Shown here piece by piece: positions 2,863 to 13,541 of a DNA stretch of 37,087 bases. The notes under the pieces were generated by a model, which worked only from the letters and a program-made list of their open reading frames with translations, was not told the origin of the DNA and did not search any database. The translations under genes and the position numbers were made by a program. This stretch comes from Bryobacterales bacterium. GTDB taxonomy: Bacteria > Acidobacteriota > Terriglobia > Bryobacterales > Bryobacteraceae. The stretch is from positions 882-37,968 of the forward strand of contig PMTT01000888.1 in the NCBI GenBank assembly GCA_003167275.1, written 5' to 3'. Within the stretch, counting starts at the first letter, position 1. Each line of letters opens with the position of its first letter.

Positions 2863-3774
2863 CTACCGCCTCCCCATCTCCACTTCCACAAAGTCTCCCA
2901 ACTGCTCGGCCGTAAACTCATTCCCCTCGAAGTTCGCCGCCAGCTTTCCCTGCCGCCCGATCACGACGGTGTGCAGCGTGTGTGTCAGGGAGCCCTCCTC
3001 CTGCCAGAAGTTCAAGCCGAACTGCCGGCAGACCGCCTTCACGTCGGGCAACGACCCGGTCAGAAAGTGCCACGACTTCGGATCGGCCTTCCACGTGGCG
3101 CCGTACTTGGCCAGCACTTTGGGCTGATCGTGCACCGGATCGAAGCTGATGCTCAGGAGCACCAGGTCGCGCCCCATGCGGTCCGCGAAGCGCTTGCTGA
3201 GGCGTCCGAAATTATTGGAGAGGCGGAAACAATAGTCCGGCAAAGGGCAGCTCGTATAGATGAACGTGAGCGCCACCACCTTGCCCGCGAATTGGGAAAG
3301 CGCGACGCGCTGTCCAGTCTGGTCGATCAGGGCGAAATCGGCCACGGGCTGTCCCAATGTCAGCTTGCCCGCGCCCGGATCCGCGGCTGCCGGGTCCGCC
3401 AGGAGTTGTAAGCGCCGTGCGCGGAGCGGCTCCTGTTCCATGCTCTCGTAGCGGTGGATCCGAATCCCTTCGGCGTAAGAATGGTCCCCATCCACCACCA
3501 GCGTGAACTCCACCGGCATGCTCGGCTCCAGCCCATCCAGCGCTTTCTCCTCCCGAACCGTGAAGGGCATCGCCATGGCCTCCATGTATCCCGGGATCGC
3601 CGCACAAGACGCGACGAACGTTAGATGGGCCCGGTCGATTTTCAAAATAACGCCAGTGACCGGATATCGCTTCGCCGCCGCGAAGCAGAGACACGCGAGC
3701 GTAAGTATGATCGCCACTTTTGTACGGTATGCTTTAGCTTGCCCAGTCTTCTTCTTTAAGCAACCTTTACTCAC
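2863..3774 (-). CDS. CusF-like / SCO1-SenC copper-chaperone fusion protein
   Basis: 304 residues from a GTG at 3774 that overlaps the stop of the upstream gene (gtgagtaa) and is preceded by a purine-rich ggaaggggggg; this start gives a basic n-region and a hydrophobic signal/anchor (VAIILTLACLCFAAA). Residues ~37-105 resemble the CusF_Ec copper-binding fold (YPVTGVILKID, IPGYMEAMAMPF, with several Met). Residues ~137-300 are an SCO1/SenC thioredoxin-like domain: GKVVALTFIYTSC, Cys176 and Cys182 in CPLPDYC, and conserved-type His at 265 and 268 in THTLHTVV. SCO proteins deliver copper to cytochrome oxidase CuA or act in periplasmic thiol redox. The cysteines are separated by five residues, not the three of classical CxxxC; family members with CPLPDYC are, to my knowledge, common. 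Co-transcribed with the parvulin-UnbV gene. Confidence 0.85.
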   Translation of the reverse strand: MSKGCLKKKTGQAKAYRTKVAIILTLACLCFAAAKRYPVTGVILKIDRAHLTFVASCAAIPGYMEAMAMPFTVREEKALDGLEPSMPVEFTLVVDGDHSYAEGIRIHRYESMEQEPLRARRLQLLADPAAADPGAGKLTLGQPVADFALIDQTGQRVALSQFAGKVVALTFIYTSCPLPDYCFRLSNNFGRLSKRFADRMGRDLVLLSISFDPVHDQPKVLAKYGATWKADPKSWHFLTGSLPDVKAVCRQFGLNFWQEEGSLTHTLHTVVIGRQGKLAANFEGNEFTAEQLGDFVEVEMGRR

Positions 3775-6340
3775 GCCCCCCCTTCCCCAACCGGACCGCC
3801 CGCCGCTCCAGCTTCTTATACTCGCGCCCACCTTCCGTAATCTCCAAAGCCTGATTCTTTCCCACATTCGCAAACACTTGCGGTTCGATCGTCCCCGGCC
3901 ACCGAATCTCCACACTCACAATCTGTGCCGACTTTCCGAGCCCGATATGCTGCTCCAAAGGCGACGCGCCGAATGACCCCCCGCTTCCCACCGTGCGATA
4001 AATCGAGCGCGCCGGCCCGCCCTCATTCTTCACCGTCACCTTTACGCGCGCCCCGATCGCCGATCGGTTAGCCTTCACGCCCCTCAGCTTAAGAGAAACC
4101 CAGTCGTTCCCCTGCCCCGGGTTTTCGAACAGACGGAACGCGTGGCTGTCTCCCTGCGTCGCACCGCCAATCACAGTCAGAATGTCTTCGTCGCCGTCGT
4201 TGTCGATGTCGGCGAAGGCCACGCCGTGTCCCTTGTGTAACTCGCCCGTCCCCGACGACGTGGTGATGTCCACGAAGCGCTTCCCCTCCTTGTTATGCAG
4301 TAACACGTTCGGAACCATGGAGGCGTAGGATGGATCGCCCGTGCCCAGATAGATGTCAAGGTAGCCGTCGTTATCCACGTCTCCGAAATTCGATCCCATC
4401 GGCATGAAGACCTTGTCGAGCCCCGCTTCCACAGTCACATCGCGAAACGCCCCATTTCCCAGATTCTTGTAGAGCTTCATCGTCCCGGCGTTGTGCGGCA
4501 GCCCCAGGTAAGTCCGGGCGGTCTCTTCCACCGACATGTAATAGCTGCTGACGAACAGGTCGGGCCAGCCGTCGTTATCGTAATCGAAGAACCATGCGGG
4601 GAAGCCGTGCCCGCTTCCCAGCACGCCGGCCTGTTTGGCGATGTCCGTGAACGTCCCGTCGCGATTGTTGTGGTAGAGCGCATTGTCCCCGCGGTAGTTG
4701 GAGACGTAAAGATCTACGTACCCGTCGTTGTCGTAGTCGTCCGCCACCACGGCCTTTGTGAAGGCCACCAGGTCAACCCCGGCGGCGTGTGAGACGTTCT
4801 GGAAAGTCCCATCCCGCTTGTTGAGGAAGAGTTGGTTGGGTCCGTTCTCATTCCCCACATACAGGTCCAGCCAGCCATCGTTGTTGATGTCCGCCCAGAC
4901 GGCGGTTTGGGAACTCATGGCCGGCTCCGCCAGCCCGCTTTCCTTAGTCACATCCGTAAAGGTCCCGTTGCAATTGTTCCGCAGCAGCGACCTCCGTTGG
5001 GGAATCTCCCAGCCACCGCGCAGAACCAGTATGTCGACACAGCCATCGTTGTTATAGTCGGCCTGGATGATATTCAGTCCGCCCACCTGCCCCGAGAGCC
5101 CAGCTTTTTCGGAACGATCCGTGAACGTGCCGTCGCCATTATTGTGAAAGAAGTGCATGGGCACGCACATGTCGAAACTCGAAGTGACAATGTCGAACAG
5201 TCCGTTATTCTCGAAGTCATCCACGATGACGCCCGCGGCCATGGAAAACAGGTTCAACCCGGCTTCCGTGGCCACGTCCTTGAATCGGCCGATATCCTCG
5301 GCGGAGGCGAATGACGCCGGCGGCAGCAGATACTCCTTCGGCACGCCGGCCGGCCACGTCCCCAACGTCATGTATGTGAGGTTCAGCAGCCACTTCACTT
5401 CCAGGTCGTCCGGCCGCCCCTTGAGGAAATCGAGAAAGTACTGAACAGCCTTCTCGGAATCCGCGGGTTTCCCATACCGGACCGAAGGCCCCATCGGGAA
5501 GAGGCAGCGTTCGCCAGGCTTGCGGTAGACGTCGTTTTCGATTTCCGACTTATGCAGGTACCCGATCCCCAGGAGTTCCTGCAGGTACGGCAGTGCGCGC
5601 GGCAGGTCCGTCGACGCCATCTTGTAAGCCAGTTCCCACGGCTCGATGGCTTGGGCCATCTCGCCCCGGTAGGCGTGCACCTGCCCCTGGGCCACCCGCA
5701 TCGACATCACGTCGATGGCCTGCCGCCCGGCGATGTTAGCCGGGTCGAGCAGCGCGGCGACGCGTTCCTGGACGGCCGCCAACGACTGCTTGCGAACTTC
5801 GCAGGCCCCGCGCAGGTCCAGGTACCAGCCGGCGGGTTTGGCGATCCCGGCCAGCGCGGCCTCGGTCTCATTGATTCCGGAGATGTCGAAGTCGAATCGC
5901 ACGCTCCCCTCCGCGCTGATGGCGGTCCGGCGGGCCTTTTCGGTATTCTCGAGCTCCGCGACCTCATTGGGCGGGAGCACCTTGAGGATAGCGAAGCCCG
6001 CCGGCAGCCTGAAGACGCGGGAAATCCGCCCCGGCGCCACTCCCTGCAGGGCCTCTCGCAACTCGGCCCGAAGGGTAGTGGTATCCACGTTACCGAGGAA
6101 TCCGCCGTCCACGGACGTAGCGTCCACGGATTTCTCCCGCGCCAGCACGGCGAAGTCCGCGCCGCCGTTGAGTTGCCCCAGGAGTTTGTCGGCCTCGGCT
6201 GCGGAATTCACGACGATTAGCCGCAAAGGAATCGTGTTGGCGGAGGCATCCTGTCCCGCGCGGGCGCTGAAGAAGCAGAACGTAAGAACTGCCGCCACCA
6301 CGGGCCACACGGCCACACGAAATATCCTGGCGAATGACAT
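3767..6340 (-). CDS. Secreted parvulin-like / TPR / FG-GAP-UnbV (CRTAC1-like) protein
   Basis: 857 residues with a signal peptide (VAVWPVVAAVLTFCFFSARA). Residues ~35-125 match a PpiC/parvulin rotamase domain (GADFAVLAREKSVD, GGFLGNVD, GRISRVFRLPAGFAILKV). A helical, TPR-like segment spans ~130-330. About seven FG-GAP/VCBS repeats follow at ~345-740, with calcium-loop motifs DYNNDG, DINNDG, DDYDNDG, DYDNDG, DVDNDG and DIDNDG. An ASPIC/UnbV domain ends the protein (NRSAIGARVKVTV, GSFGASPLEQHIGLG, VEIRWPG). The C-terminal half is the CRTAC1-like architecture abundant in Acidobacteria; the parvulin-like head is the unusual part. It should act outside the cytoplasm; the catalytic status of the rotamase is unknown. 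It is the first gene of a two-gene unit with the SCO1 fusion. Confidence 0.88.
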   Translation of the reverse strand: MSFARIFRVAVWPVVAAVLTFCFFSARAGQDASANTIPLRLIVVNSAAEADKLLGQLNGGADFAVLAREKSVDATSVDGGFLGNVDTTTLRAELREALQGVAPGRISRVFRLPAGFAILKVLPPNEVAELENTEKARRTAISAEGSVRFDFDISGINETEAALAGIAKPAGWYLDLRGACEVRKQSLAAVQERVAALLDPANIAGRQAIDVMSMRVAQGQVHAYRGEMAQAIEPWELAYKMASTDLPRALPYLQELLGIGYLHKSEIENDVYRKPGERCLFPMGPSVRYGKPADSEKAVQYFLDFLKGRPDDLEVKWLLNLTYMTLGTWPAGVPKEYLLPPASFASAEDIGRFKDVATEAGLNLFSMAAGVIVDDFENNGLFDIVTSSFDMCVPMHFFHNNGDGTFTDRSEKAGLSGQVGGLNIIQADYNNDGCVDILVLRGGWEIPQRRSLLRNNCNGTFTDVTKESGLAEPAMSSQTAVWADINNDGWLDLYVGNENGPNQLFLNKRDGTFQNVSHAAGVDLVAFTKAVVADDYDNDGYVDLYVSNYRGDNALYHNNRDGTFTDIAKQAGVLGSGHGFPAWFFDYDNDGWPDLFVSSYYMSVEETARTYLGLPHNAGTMKLYKNLGNGAFRDVTVEAGLDKVFMPMGSNFGDVDNDGYLDIYLGTGDPSYASMVPNVLLHNKEGKRFVDITTSSGTGELHKGHGVAFADIDNDGDEDILTVIGGATQGDSHAFRLFENPGQGNDWVSLKLRGVKANRSAIGARVKVTVKNEGGPARSIYRTVGSGGSFGASPLEQHIGLGKSAQIVSVEIRWPGTIEPQVFANVGKNQALEITEGGREYKKLERRAVRLGKGGRE

Positions 6341-6697
6341 GGACGAAAGGACAACCCGGTCCAGCGAAGTATTGATATGTTATCACCCCCAGCGCCAGCG
6401 TGCGTTTTTGGTGGGACAGGCAGGCCGCCCAATCGGCACTTCCACCCGCCGGTCTTTTCGATGGGCGCGATAGAAACTTTTTGCGCGACAGGTTCAGCGT
6501 GCCTTGGCATACTGTGACCATGTCCCTGGCGAACCCCGAGCGCATCACGCGGGCGCGGATTTCTATCCGCGTGTTCCTTCGCCTCACCGCCATGGACGTG
6601 TGCTGCGGGCCTCCCTGCCATTCCCTTTCCTGATCGCCGGACCACGCACGGATTTCTCCGCGCCTGGCCGCAAATGAAAGCTGAAAGGTGGGAGCGT
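6341..6697. other. Intergenic region between divergent genes
   Basis: This 357-bp gap separates the parvulin-UnbV gene from the carboxylase operon and should carry both promoters. It contains a partial repeat copy (gtgggacaggc at 6411) and a perfect hairpin at 6554-6571. I looked for the conserved boxes of the guanidine-I (ykkC) riboswitch and for a sigma-54 -24/-12 element and did not find convincing matches. No small gene is supported. Confidence 0.5.
6554..6571. repeat. Hairpin repeat in the leader region of the carboxylase operon
   Basis: Perfect 7-bp stem (cgcggat / atccgcg) with a 4-base loop, preceded by cgggcg. It has the same design as the dispersed hairpin family. Its position 127 bp upstream of the first operon gene means it may lie in the 5' leader. 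Confidence 0.5.
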
Positions 6698-7414
6698 ATG
6701 AGCGAATCGTCCGTCCTCTGGGAAGAGATAGTGCAACCGGGCGCGACCTGGTCGCACGTGTTGAAGCGCGGCACGGCGTTGCGGATCACCGATGTGGAAG
6801 GCGGCGCGAATGCCGGCGCCATCTTCTATAACTTTGAGTGCCCCACCGAGCGCTACAACATGCCGGACACCCTCAAAGCGCAGCACATCGCGCGGCTCAC
6901 CGAGGGATTCGTCCTCTATTCGGATATGGGCCGGATTCTGTGCTCCCTCACCCGCGATACGGTGGGCTGGCACGATCCGCTGGCAGGATGTTCCAACCGC
7001 GCGATGGTCGCCGCCCGCTACGGCGAGGCGCGCTATCAGGATTTCCGGAACGACTGTCACAAGAATGCGCGCGACAGCTTTCTGGTGGAGTTGGGGAAAT
7101 GGGGGCTGGGGCCGCGCGACCTGATCGCCAACGTGAATTTCTTCAGCCGCGTGGATGTGGCGGAGGACGGGAGCATGTCGTTCCACGCGGGGAACTCCCA
7201 GCCAGGCGCGTACGTGGATCTTCGCGCCGAGATGAACGTGCTGACCCTTGTGAATACCTGCCAGCACCCTCTCGATCCGAATCCGAAATACGACCCGAAG
7301 CCCGTCCACCTGTCGATCCGGCGCGTGCCGCCCGCCGGACCCGACGATCCATGCCGCCTGTCGCGGCCCGAGAACGGACGCGGCTTTACGTTGACCGAAC
7401 GCTATTTTCTGTAG
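6698..7414 (+). CDS. DUF1989 urea carboxylase-associated protein 1 (carboxyguanidine deiminase subunit candidate)
   Basis: 238 residues from the ATG at 6698, preceded by ggtgggag; an in-frame ATG at 6674 is the alternative. The protein is DUF1989, UAAP1 type: ALRITDVEGGANAGAIFYNF, ERYNMPDTLKAQHIARLT, VLYSDMGRILCSLTRDTVGWHD, and NFFSRVDVAEDGSMSF. DUF1989 pairs next to urea-carboxylase-like genes have been shown in other bacteria to form a carboxyguanidine deiminase that turns carboxyguanidine into allophanate and ammonia. The gene is followed 12 bp later by the second DUF1989 gene and then by the carboxylase and allophanate hydrolase, the full expected set. Function is inferred from family and context; a role only in urea metabolism is the alternative. 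Confidence 0.88.
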   Translation: MSESSVLWEEIVQPGATWSHVLKRGTALRITDVEGGANAGAIFYNFECPTERYNMPDTLKAQHIARLTEGFVLYSDMGRILCSLTRDTVGWHDPLAGCSNRAMVAARYGEARYQDFRNDCHKNARDSFLVELGKWGLGPRDLIANVNFFSRVDVAEDGSMSFHAGNSQPGAYVDLRAEMNVLTLVNTCQHPLDPNPKYDPKPVHLSIRRVPPAGPDDPCRLSRPENGRGFTLTERYFL

Positions 7415-7426
7415 GGGAGGAGGAGC

Positions 7427-8080
7427 ATGAGCGGGATCGTAGAGAGCAATCTGGACGCAGCGAACGCCGTCTACCGCGCCGTCATTCCGGCGGGCGAGCC
7501 GTGGGTCCGCGAAGTCCGCAAGGGGCAGTACTTCCGGATCGTCGATCTCGGCGGCAACCAGGCTGTCGACACGCTGTTCTACAACGCGCACGACTATTCC
7601 GACCGTTTCAGCGCGCAGGACACCATTCGCGAACAGCGGAATATCTACCTCACTACGGGCACGCGCCTGATGTCCAACGGAGGCACGGCCCTGCTCACCA
7701 TCGTTGCCGATACCTGCGGACGCCACGACACGCTGGGCGGCGCCTGCGCCAACGAAAGCAATATGGTCCGCTACGCCATCGAGAAGCGGCACATGCACGC
7801 CTGCCGCAGCAGTTTCCTAAAGGCCGTCACCGAATGGAACCAGGGCATGACCAAGCGTGACATCACCAGCAACATCAACTTCTTCATGAATGTCCCGGTG
7901 ACGCCGGAGGGCAAGCTCACTTTCGAGGACGGAATCTCCGAACCCGGCAAATACGTCGAGATGCGCGCCGAAACGGACGTGCTGGCCATGATCAGCAACT
8001 GCCCGCAGCTCAATAATCCCTGCAACGGGTACGATCCCACCCCGGTCGAGGTGTTGATCTGGGACGGGCCGGGAAACTGA
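7427..8080 (+). CDS. DUF1989 urea carboxylase-associated protein 2 (carboxyguanidine deiminase subunit candidate)
   Basis: 217 residues from an ATG with a strong ribosome site (ggggaggagg). The DUF1989 UAAP2 signature is clear: [60 protein letters not shown], and [21 protein letters not shown]. The cysteine and histidine in DTCGRHD and the GGACANESN loop are the most conserved part and likely active-site or metal-site residues. It should pair with the preceding UAAP1-type protein as a heteromer acting on the carboxylase product. Its TGA overlaps the ATG of the carboxylase by one base, so translation is coupled. Confidence 0.88.
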
Positions 8081-11000
8081 TGTTCCGCAAGGTCCTGGTC
8101 GCCAATCGAGGCGTTATCGCAGTTCGGATTATCCGCACGCTGCGGCGTATGGGAGTCGGTTCGGTGGCTGTCTACTCGGAGGCGGACCGGCATTCCCTGC
8201 ATGTGGAGCGCGCCGATGAGGCGGTCCTGATTGGCCCTGCGGCAGCGGCCGAGAGCTATCTCTCGGTTGAGCGATTGCTGGAGGCAGCGCGAAAAACAGG
8301 GGCGGAAGCGATCCATCCGGGCTACGGATTTCTGAGCGAGAACGCCGGTTTCGCCGAGGCCTGCGCGGATCGCGGTATCGTCTTCATCGGGCCGTCTCCT
8401 GACCAGATGCGGGCGTTTGGTTTGAAGCACACGGCGCGGCGGATCGCGGGCGAGAACGGAGTGCCGGTGTTGCCGGGCACGCCGCTTCTGGGGTCGCTGG
8501 CCGAGGCGCTGTCGGCCGCCGCACGGATCGGCTACCCTGTGATGCTCAAGAGCACCGCGGGGGGCGGCGGGATCGGCATGCGATCGTGCGACCGCGCGGC
8601 GGAGCTGACGGAATCGTATGCCGCCGTCCAGCGCTTGAGCCAATCCAGTTTCGGCACCGGCGGGATGTATCTGGAGAAATTCGTGGCTCGCGCGCGGCAC
8701 ATCGAGGTACAGATCTTCGGAGACGGCGCGGGCGCCGTGGTCGCGCTGGGGGAGCGCGATTGCTCGGCGCAGCGGCGCAATCAGAAGGTCATTGAGGAGA
8801 CGCCCGCCCCCGGCATCGACGAGGCCACTCGCGCGCGGCTTCTGGACGCCGCGGTGCGGTTGGGCGAGGGCGTGAACTATCGATCCGCCGGCACGGTGGA
8901 ATTCATCTACGACGCCGATACGTCGCAGTTCTACTTCCTGGAAGTGAACACGCGGCTGCAAGTGGAGCACGGAGTCACCGAGGAAGTCACAGGCGTCGAT
9001 CTGGTGGAGTGGATGGTGCGCCTGGCGGCGGGGGATAGACTTTGTAGCGCCGGCGCTACAGGCTGCTCCCTCCAGGTCCGCATCTACGCCGAGGACCCCG
9101 CCAAGAACTTCCAGCCGAGCGCCGGCAAACTTTCGCAAGTGTCCTGGCCGGCACGGGCGCGCGTGGAGACCTGGGTGGAGTCGGGCACGGAGGTCACCCC
9201 GTACTACGACCCGATGCTCGCCAAGATCATCGTGCGCGGCGTCGACCGCGCCGCGGCGCTCGCGGCAATGCGCGCGGCACTGGCGGAGTGCCGCATCGCC
9301 GGCATTGAGACCAACCTGGAGTACTTGCGCCAGGTCTGTGCCGACCCGGCCTTCGAAGCTGGTGGCATCACCACTTCGTTTCTCCGCGCCTTCGATTACC
9401 GGCGCCATGCCGTCGAGGTGCTTGACCCCGGCACGCAGACCACGATTCAGGATTATCCCGGCCGCGTGGGCTACTGGCACGTCGGCGTTCCCCCCTCCGG
9501 TCCGATGGACGCCCTGTCCTTTCGCGTGGGCAACCGCCTGGTGGGAAACGCCGAGGAGGCAGCCGGGCTGGAGATCACGGTGACGGGCCCCGCGCTGCGG
9601 TTCGGCTGCGATGCCACGATCGCGCTCACCGGCGCGGATTTCGGAGCGCGGCTGGACGGCGTGGCACTCGCTCCCTGGCAGGCCGTCGAGGTGAAGGCCG
9701 GTTCGGTCCTGGAACTGGGTTCGGCGCAGGGACCCGGCAGCCGCGCGTATCTGGCGATCGCCGGAGGATTCGACGTGCCGGTGTATCTGGGCAGCCGGAG
9801 CACATTCATCCTAGGCAAATTCGGCGGCCATGCCGGACGAGTGCTCCGGGCAGGCGACGTGGTGCACTTGCTCCCCCGTGGCGCGGGCACTCGTGCCTGC
9901 CGCATCGACTCCCCTGGTGGGACAGGCGGTTTCGCCTGTCCTCCCGCCTGTATGAGGCCCACGCCAACAGAACAGTACCAAACCCACACAGGCCAGAATG
10001 CCCATGTCACAGCGTGGGAAATCGGCGTCCTCTACGGCCCGCACGGTGCGCCCGATTTCTTCACCGCCGCGGACATCCAGACCTTCTTCTCCAACCCGTG
10101 GAAAGTCCACCACAATTCGGACCGCACCGGCGTCCGCCTCATCGGGCCCAAACCGGAGTGGGCGCGCAAAGACGGAGGCGAAGCCGGCCTGCACCCATCG
10201 AACATTCACGACAACGCCTATGCCGTCGGCACCATCGATTTCACGGGCGATATGCCAGTGATCCTGGGTCCCGATGGCCCCAGTCTGGGCGGGTTCGTCT
10301 GCCCGGCCACGATAGTCCAGGCCGAGCTCTGGAAGATCGGCCAACTGAAGCCGGGCGACCTGGTTCGCTTCCGCGCCATTTCCCTGGAACAGGCGCGCGA
10401 AATGGAAAGGCTCCTCGACGACTATGTGCGGACGCTGGACGGACGGCCACCGGGTTTGCCACCGGTGCCGGTTCGCGAGGAGCCGATATTGCGGAGCACC
10501 CCCCAATTGCTGGGCAAGCTAAAGCATACCCTACGGGTTTGCCGGGCCGATGGCGATCGCTACCTGCTGGTCGAATACGGGCCCAACGTCCTCGATCTGA
10601 ACCTCCGCTTCCGTGTCCACGCGCTCGAAAGCCAACTGCGCGGCGCGGCACTTCCGGGCATCCTCGACATCACGCCCGGAGTCCGCTCCCTGCACATCCA
10701 TTACGATGGCAGACTCCTGGCGCGCGAGTCCCTGCTCGAAGCACTGGACGCCTGCGAGCAGCGCATCCCGGATCTCGACGATCTGGTGGTGCCCTCGCGC
10801 ATCGTCCATTTGCCGCTCTCCTGGGACGATCCGGCCACCCAGTTGGCCATTCGCAAATACATGCAGGGGGTCAGGCCCGACGCGCCCTGGTGCCCTAGCA
10901 ACATCGAGTTCATCCGCCGCATCAACGGCCTGGAATCCGTCGATGCTGTCCGCCGTATCGTGTTCGGCGCGAACTACCTGGTGCTAGGCCTGGGCGACGT

Positions 11001-11763
11001 CTACCTGGGCGCGCCGGTGGCCACGCCGACCGATCCGCGCCACCGCATGGTCACCACCAAGTACAATCCGGCGCGCACCTGGACTCCCGAAAACGCCGTG
11101 GGGATTGGAGGCGCCTACCTCTGCGTCTACGGCATGGAAGGGCCGGGCGGATACCAGTTCGTGGGCCGCACCGTCCAGATGTGGAACACCTGGCGCGCCA
11201 CGCGCGAGTTTGAACCCGGTACGCCGTGGCTTCTCCGCTTCTTCGACCAGATCCGGTTTGAGCCGGTCTCCGCCGCCGAACTGCTGGAGATCCGCGACCA
11301 GTTCCCGCATGGGCGCTATCCGCTACGCATCGAGCACCAGGATTTCCGCCTGAAGGACTACCACGCCTTCCTGGCCTCCACCGCAACAGAGGCCGCGGAA
11401 TGCAAGCGCCGCCAGCAGGAAGCCTTCGATGCGGAGCGCGAGCGCTGGGCTCGCGCCGGCGCGGACAAGGTCTTCGAAGCGCCCGACGAAAGCGCCGACC
11501 CAGGTGGCGTCCGCGCAGAAGAGATGCCCGAGGGTTGCCGGTCCGTCTGCTCCCCGGTCACCGCAAGCGTCTGGAACATCGCGGTGGAAACCGGCCAACG
11601 TGTGGAAGCCGGGCAGAAACTGGTGGTCCTGGAAGCCATGAAGATGGAGATTGCCGTGGCATCTCCCGCCGCCGGGACTATCGAGCGGCTGAATTGCATC
11701 GCCGGCGCGTTGGTGATGGCCGGGCAGCACCTGGTCACGCTGCGCCAGGAGGTGAGAACATGA
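8080..11763 (+). CDS. Biotin-dependent urea/guanidine carboxylase
   Basis: 1227 residues, the full length of a single-chain urea-carboxylase-type enzyme. Order: biotin carboxylase (1-445; ATP-grasp glycine loop GGGGIGM near 160-166, [10 protein letters not shown] near 288), carboxyltransferase (about 445-1130; [78 protein letters not shown]), and biotin carrier with EAMKMEI, Lys1188 being the biotinylated residue. It uses ATP and bicarbonate to carboxylate urea or guanidine in the cytoplasm. The two DUF1989 neighbours favour guanidine. Two oddities: an 18-bp palindrome (9043-9060) codes part of a biotin-carboxylase loop, and a hairpin repeat from 9878 codes about 45 foreign-looking residues (600-645) in the carboxyltransferase linker. 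The frame stays open. ATGA overlap with the next gene. Confidence 0.92.
9043..9060. repeat. 18-bp perfect palindrome inside the carboxylase gene
   Basis: tgtagcgcc followed directly by its exact reverse complement ggcgctaca. It lies in frame in the biotin carboxylase part and codes CSAGAT, just before the conserved [10 protein letters not shown]. The encoded residues do not look like the family consensus at this loop. Confidence 0.55.
9878..9940. repeat. Dispersed hairpin repeat in frame inside the carboxylase gene
   Basis: Begins gtggcgcgggcac and matches the start of the 15761 element at about 29 of 33 positions. It contains two hairpins: ggcac/gtgcc (9886-9897) and gacaggcg/cgcctgtc with a 4-base loop (9921-9940). 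The coding frame runs through it, giving [20 protein letters not shown] and then a Thr/Gln/Pro-rich stretch up to about 10008. Confidence 0.7.
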
Positions 11764-13541
11764 CGTCGGATCTCGCGCTGGACCTGGCATCTTTGCGCGC
11801 ACTCTATCAATCGCGGTCGGCCAAGCCCACCGACGTGGTGGCGGCGGTCTACGACCGGATCGGCAGCGGCCCTCTGGCCCCCGTTTGGATCTCCCTGGTG
11901 CCGCGCAAATACGCCATGGCCCAGGCGCGCGAACTGGAGAACGACCCGCTGGCGGCCGCCCGTCCGCTCTACGGCGTCCCGTTCGCCATCAAGGACAACC
12001 TCGACCTGGCCGGCCTCGCGACCACCGCGGGATGCCCCGCCTACGCCTATCAACCGTCCCGCAGCGCGACCGTCGTACAATCGCTGGTCGATGCCGGAGC
12101 GATCCCCATCGGCAAGACCAATCTCGATCAATTCGCCACCGGCCTGGTGGGCACCCGGACACCGCACGGGGCCTGCTCCAGCGTCTTCGACCAGCGGTAC
12201 ATCTCGGGCGGATCCAGTGCGGGCTCGGCCGTGGCAGTCGCCAAGGGGTTGGCCAGTTTTGCGCTGGGCAGCGACACGGCCGGGTCGGGCCGAGTCCCGG
12301 CGGCCTTCAACAACCTGGTAGGTCTGAAGCCCTCGCGCGGCCTGTTGAGCACCCTGGGACTGGTGCCCGCATGTCGGACCTTAGACTGTGTTTCCATCCT
12401 GGCGGCGACCTGTCATGACGCCTGGACCGTGTGGGACTCCGCCCGTGGATTCGATGCCGCCGACCCGTTTTCCCGCGTCCCGTCGTCCGGCCAGTCCGCC
12501 GCGCCCTGGGCCAGCGGGACCTTCCGATTCGGCGTCCCGGCGGCCGACCAGCTTCAGTTCTTTGGCGATGACGAGGCCGCCGCCCTGTATGAAAAGGCGG
12601 TGGCGGCGCTGGAGGGCGTAGGCGGGCAGAAGGTGGAGATCGATTTCGCGGTCTTCCGCGCCGCCGCCGACCTGCTCTATTCCGGCCCGTGGGTGGCTGA
12701 GCGCCTGGCGGCGATCCGCCCATTCCTCGAACAGCATGCCGACCAGATGGACCCGGTGGTGCGCGAGATCATCTCCGGCGCACGCCGCTATACCGCGGTG
12801 GACGCATTCGAGGCCGAATACCGCCTGCGGGAGTTGCGCCGCGCCACCGAATCGCAATGGGAGCGCATGGACGTCCTGGTGCTCCCCACCACCGGAACCA
12901 TTTACACGCACGAAGCCTTGGCCGCCGAGCCTTTCAAACTGAATACCAATCTGGGCTACTACACCAACTTCGTGAACCTGCTGGACCTTGCCGCGGTGGC
13001 GGCGCCCGCCGGTTTTCGTGCCAACGGTTTGCCCTTTGGCGTATCGTTTATCGGCCCGGCGTTCAGCGATGAAGCCCTGCTGGCGGTGGCCGACCGGTAC
13101 CATCGCACGTGGGCCCAACTGCCCGGCCCGGCCATCGACCTGGGGGCGTGCCCTCCAGGCTGCATCGCGGTGGCGGTGGTGGGCGCGCACCTGAAGGGGC
13201 AGCCCTTAAATCGCCAGCTCACGGAGCGCGGAGCGCGCCTGATCAAATCGTGCCGCACCGCGCGCGGCTATCGTCTGTACGCGCTGGATCGGACCATGCC
13301 TCCGAAACCCGGCCTGGTGCGCGACGATAGTTTCGACGGGAAAGGCATCGAGGTGGAGGTGTGGGCGGTGCCCGAAGATCGCTTCGGCGGATTCGTCGCG
13401 GACGTGCCGCCGCCGCTCGGAATCGGGAACGCCACTCTGGATAGCGGCGAGACGGTGAAGTGCTTCATCTGCGAGCCCTATGCGATTCGGGGCGCCACCG
13501 AAATCACCCACTTCGGCGGCTGGCGGAACTATTTGAAGTGA
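11760..13541 (+). CDS. atzF: Allophanate hydrolase
   Basis: 593 residues from the ATG at 11760, which overlaps the carboxylase stop as ATGA; the longer open frame upstream is carboxylase in another frame. Residues ~20-440 are an amidase-signature domain: [11 protein letters not shown] with Lys78, [10 protein letters not shown] with the cis-Ser at 152, and [18 protein letters not shown] with the nucleophile Ser176, the expected Ser-cisSer-Lys triad. The C-terminal ~130 residues ([44 protein letters not shown]) are the allophanate-hydrolase C domain, which in studied enzymes helps convert the intermediate to ammonia and CO2. Length and both domains are normal. It completes the pathway: carboxylated substrate to allophanate to 2 CO2 and 2 NH3. 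Symbol by family; atzF/dur2 naming varies. Confidence 0.93.

Follow-up and report, generated by a model that had tools for sequence, protein, structure and literature searches.

A gene encoding a CRTAC1-type propeller protein and the gene for a CusF-SCO1 copper chaperone-like protein form a conserved unit in Acidobacteriota, and this pairing suggests an undescribed copper-dependent protein system in soil Acidobacteria. The pair was analyzed in a 37,087-nucleotide stretch of DNA from a Bryobacterales bacterium (the window), where both genes lie on the minus strand. We favor, at a probability of about 35%, the explanation that the two proteins are a secreted unit in which the propeller has a candidate soft-metal site, SCO-CusF would serve as the metal donor, and a pseudo-parvulin domain would act as a binding module. 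The features of the pair are listed below.

3767..6340, minus strand: ORF of the propeller protein, 857 aa (ORF, Pfam, AlphaFold2 model, fold match to CRTAC1 9etn)
6260..6340, minus strand: signal-peptide-like N terminus, residues 1-27 (sequence read by eye; helix at 7-27 in the model)
5978..6226, minus strand: parvulin-type (PpiC) domain, residues about 39-121 (Rotamase match, 68-homolog alignment, fold matches to 3gpk, 2kgj and PrsA)
5306..5968, minus strand: TPR-like helical region, residues about 125-345, containing H263 (model helices, profile match)
4121..5278, minus strand: seven-blade FG-GAP propeller, residues about 355-740 (Pfam, motif count, conservation, model)
3845..4060, minus strand: UnbV/ASPIC domain, residues 761-832 (Pfam)
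2863..3774, minus strand: CusF-SCO1 copper chaperone-like protein, 303 aa (Pfam, start and stop read, conserved ligands)

An earlier note on this DNA, made from the sequence without database searches, had described a secreted protein with a PpiC-like rotamase domain at its start and a CRTAC1-type propeller with ASPIC/UnbV at its end. Each of these assignments was borne out. The N terminus is hydrophobic and helical, with a possible cleavage site at ARA-GQD as judged by eye, and the HMM check that the note had proposed returned all three families in the 857-aa protein: Rotamase PF00639 (residues 47-121, E=2.5e-10, above the gathering score), FG-GAP_3 PF13517 (six stretches, E=1e-46) and UnbV_ASPIC PF07593 (residues 761-832, E=1.6e-13). 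The same trio was present in all 46 relatives scanned with Pfam. An AlphaFold2 model built from 67 sequences had a mean pLDDT of 91.7 and was helical from about residue 124 to 345 and mostly beta elsewhere. Its top fold match in the PDB was murine CRTAC1 (9etn, E 4.7e-27), and its N-terminal domain superposed on the parvulin domains of PpiC, PrsA and PpiD at 1.5-1.8 Å rmsd. Seven blades were counted by eye from the repeats and the model strands, and six exact Dx[DN]xDG motifs were located in the propeller, at residues 428, 484, 535, 586, 654 and 711. This motif is a known calcium-blade motif (PMC3123361), and the propeller, of the CRTAC1 type, is predicted to bind calcium.

The TPR region named in the earlier note is best called TPR-like. 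Pfam returned no TPR match at E<=1 in the window's 857-aa protein, and TPR families matched fewer than half of the relatives (14 of 46 for TPR_2). On the other side stand the helical model and a match of the family profile to designed TPR proteins at residues 214-335 (E 3.7e-17). Compared with the CRTAC1/ASPIC-UnbV proteins (PF13517 + PF07593; 9etn), which gave the best PDB match by both sequence and fold, the protein shares the Dx[DN]xDG propeller and the C-terminal UnbV domain but differs in its N-terminal pseudo-parvulin and TPR-like regions, its clade-specific His and Cys residues, and its coupling to SCO-CusF. The combination is unusual, as had been claimed, in that few members of the phylum sample have it, yet it is common to dozens of Acidobacteriota.

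The partner gene was listed as an ORF at 2863..3915, within which the likely start was placed at GTG 3774, other starts being possible. From this start (3774-3772), the gene overlaps the propeller gene, with its TAA stop (3769-3767), by 8 nt (GTGAGTAA), which is consistent with the translational coupling suggested earlier. In Pfam the 303-aa protein matched CusF_Ec (E=5.6e-7) and SCO1-SenC (E=7.7e-18), along with the thioredoxin-fold families Redoxin and AhpC-TSA. The protein resembles SCO1/SenC in its SCO1-SenC domain, its two Cys and its distal His, both Cys and the His being invariant (57 of 57 partner proteins). It differs in the spacing of the Cys pair, which is CX5C (CPLPDYC) whereas the known Cys motif of SCO1 is CX3C. 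The Met triad of CusF was retained in 54-55 of 57 partners. In contrast to CusF, the His position of this domain was occupied by Cys in most paired members (37 of 57; His in 7 of 57), and the same position was mostly His in more distant CusF-SCO proteins.

Conservation of the gene pair, which the earlier note had proposed as a check, was evident in a genome scan that retained 80 loci (L numbers), nearly all labelled Acidobacteriota. An SCO gene lay directly downstream on the same strand in 47 of the 64 homologs that had the parvulin domain by a strict criterion. Of the other 17, four were at contig ends, two had an SCO gene at another place in the locus and 11 had none, so that leaving out the contig-end loci gave 47 of 60 testable homologs. 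SCO was also downstream of all six N-terminally truncated homologs, and the spacing between the two genes had an estimated median of -19 nt. The source genome contained only five SCO-like matches in 11.5 Mb. Among class genomes, the propeller gene adjoined the SCO relative in all eight regions around relatives of at least 50% identity, and it was detected in none of 12 regions around distant CusF-SCO proteins (<=46%), where the ORF caller missed some SCO genes. The record for L130, titled Nevskia soli (a gammaproteobacterium), carries the otherwise acidobacterial pair and is likely a mislabelled genome. Three homologs were split into two frames, L063 (5920-6690 and 6590-8722), L112 (5446-6333 and 6433-8307) and L123. 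The split in L063, which matches L031 of the same-genus genome G001, falls in the N-terminal helical part, and these cases could reflect assembly error or real gene fission.

Clustering of the neighbors at the 80 loci yielded SCO at 53, a TPR cluster at 22 and a TonB-receptor-like cluster, identified by eye, at 18; no other neighbor occurred at more than six loci. These counts bear on a rival explanation, that the two genes share regulation without a biochemical link between their products, the propeller being a generic CRTAC1-type surface or periplasmic binder that works with TonB receptors and TPR proteins while SCO serves respiratory copper sites. In its favor, several of the loci have TonB receptors, TPR proteins or further CRTAC1 paralogs nearby, and the genome holds many CRTAC1 paralogs. 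We nevertheless consider it somewhat unlikely, given that the TonB and TPR neighbors were each found at 18-22 of 80 loci against 53 for SCO, and that the partner SCO proteins form their own group, at >=50% identity, beside the propeller gene.

The explanation that we favor, a secreted metal-handling unit, draws on residues that distinguish the SCO-paired proteins. In a tree of 93 sequences, the SCO-paired group formed a clade of 71 rows with an SH-aLRT value of 100. Within this clade 259 positions were conserved, of which 17 were rare in the 21 relatives without SCO, and five of these 17 were His or Cys (H263, C434, C457, H702 and H733). His, Cys or Met occupied 9 of the other 242 conserved positions, compared to 5 of 17 (odds ratio 10.8, Fisher p = 0.0009); this test was run after the pattern had been seen and treated positions as independent, and its p-value is descriptive, not predictive. 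The SCO-less relatives carry R263, C270, H289, Q702, Y or F733 and usually H700, and almost every protein in either group has H705 and M648. The SCO-less relatives (L116, L139 and others) also conserve, at the equivalents of residues 269-289, the motif NC-x3/4-H-x4-C and a His after it. The motif is lost in the SCO-paired clade, and in L138 both Cys and the later His were lost together; it may represent another metal or disulfide site.

The correspondence between residues and pairing had exceptions. One SCO-paired subclade (L113, L121 and L130) lacked both H702 and H733, and four loci (L094, L102, L105 and L128) had P702 and kept H733, with SCO nearby and inverted in three of them. At six loci that do not belong to the SCO-less sister group, the clade residues were present with no adjacent SCO. 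When SCO pairing was compared on the tree with the H702/H705/H733 pattern, about one independent pair differed in both traits, too few informative pairs for an independent-pairs test. Counts of parvulin state on the tree were unreliable and were not used, since split or truncated ORFs and three members with an altered parvulin motif (L094, L102 and L128) had been scored as lacking the domain. The residue swap cannot be counted as repeated coevolution because it is confined to one or a few deep branches.

In blade 7 of the model, H705 sits on strand A and H733 on strand C; by the strand limits they should be level with one another, two strands apart, and H702 lies three residues before H705. 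A candidate metal site formed by H702, H705 and H733 is plausible but unproven. The large protein would be a calcium-stabilized CRTAC1-type propeller that holds a site for copper, or for another soft metal, built from clade-specific His, to which M648 and, from the TPR region, H263 may also contribute. SCO-CusF would deliver the metal to the propeller protein or set its redox state, and the pair, periplasmic or exported, would act as one unit. We infer a copper step between SCO-CusF and the propeller protein. Since the SCO-paired clade has its specific His and Cys in the propeller and TPR part, the copper link appears better placed there than in the parvulin domain. A bolder version, in which this CRTAC1-type clade of Acidobacteriota is an unrecognized copper protein or enzyme with a blade-7 His site, perhaps shared with the TPR region, and is matured by a dedicated CusF-SCO protein from the same operon, strikes us as rather unlikely.

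The two clade-specific Cys residues allow for a different partnership. In the model, C434 lies in the A-B loop and C457 in the C-D loop of blade 2, and a disulfide between them is plausible. Instead of donating copper, SCO-CusF might be a thiol-disulfide partner that forms or reduces C434-C457 during folding of the propeller, with copper in a tuning role only. Both Cys are specific to the SCO-paired clade, and the partner, with its invariant Cys pair, matches Redoxin and AhpC-TSA. C457, however, was missing in several SCO-paired members, and a CusF domain with a Met triad points to copper, and we consider a thiol-disulfide role unlikely.

The parvulin-type domain is probably not catalytic. Parvulin catalysis uses two conserved histidines, and at neither of the corresponding positions (40 and 117) was His found in any of the 68 homologs aligned. 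These positions are presumed to be equivalent to His8 and His83 of E. coli Par10, in part from an alignment with SurA, in which the second catalytic His lies in GFHILKV. Position 40 was R, G, Q, E, S or A and position 117 was A, V, M or G across the homologs; the window protein has R40 and A117 and retains D73. Asp73 was present in 68 of 68 homologs, as was a GG motif that had also served as a selection criterion for the alignment. In L094, L102 and L128, AG replaces GG, and both catalytic His are likewise absent. The nearest solved parvulin in a single-sequence search was the domain of E. coli PpiD (2kgj; E 3.4e-7, rmsd 1.7 Å), which has the parvulin fold without the catalytic His; this domain is reported to lack PPIase activity and to be dispensable for the chaperone function of PpiD in vivo (PMC2956729). 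Here the domain is instead fused to TPR and propeller regions, and identity with PpiD was rejected, the NCBIfam PpiD model scoring 40.9 bits against a cut-off of 493. With neither catalytic His in any of these 68 homologs, the domain is best described as a probable pseudo-parvulin similar to that of PpiD, and it may be a peptide- or protein-binding module. The folding catalyst proposed in the earlier note is therefore not supported by the sequence, and the name peptidylprolyl isomerase, which the Rotamase match invites, is likely an annotation error that is corrected here.

Nor is the domain specifically tied to copper, because a sister group (L116, L117, L118, L131 and L134) has the parvulin domain and no SCO neighbor. 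The same five loci contain tandem paralogs, of which one has the pseudo-parvulin and the other lacks it, followed by two opposite-strand TPR proteins. This sister group weakens the rotamase half of the proposal that the two proteins jointly mature a secreted metalloprotein; a copper link and the conservation of the pair are supported. The original form of that idea, an active parvulin isomerase or chaperone that folds a third secreted client which SCO loads with copper, has significant rotamase homology and fold and the coupling to a copper chaperone behind it, but is very unlikely given the missing catalytic His, the sister group and the lack of a third conserved gene beside the pair. Such a client gene in the operon had been considered and was rejected upon clustering of the neighbors at the 80 loci.

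Our literature searches found no report linking UnbV with SCO1, none on SCO1 with CusF and Acidobacteria, and no function for CRTAC1/ASPIC-UnbV proteins, which are numerous in Acidobacteriota; in the Solibacter genome paper, ASPIC/UnbV appears in a list and nowhere else. A CRTAC1-family gene is reported to adjoin hydrazine-synthase-like genes (PMC12758564), which is another unexplained link of CRTAC1-type propellers to redox proteins. An operon with a copper chaperone, together with clade-specific His and Cys, offers a concrete handle on this family, in that the metal, the residues and the partner can each be named. Elsewhere in the window, the plus strand at 6674-13541 encodes DUF1989 proteins, transcribed divergently from the pair, a urea-carboxylase-type biotin-dependent carboxylase and, after it, an amidase-like ORF at 11400-13541; this region is unrelated to the propeller-SCO pair.
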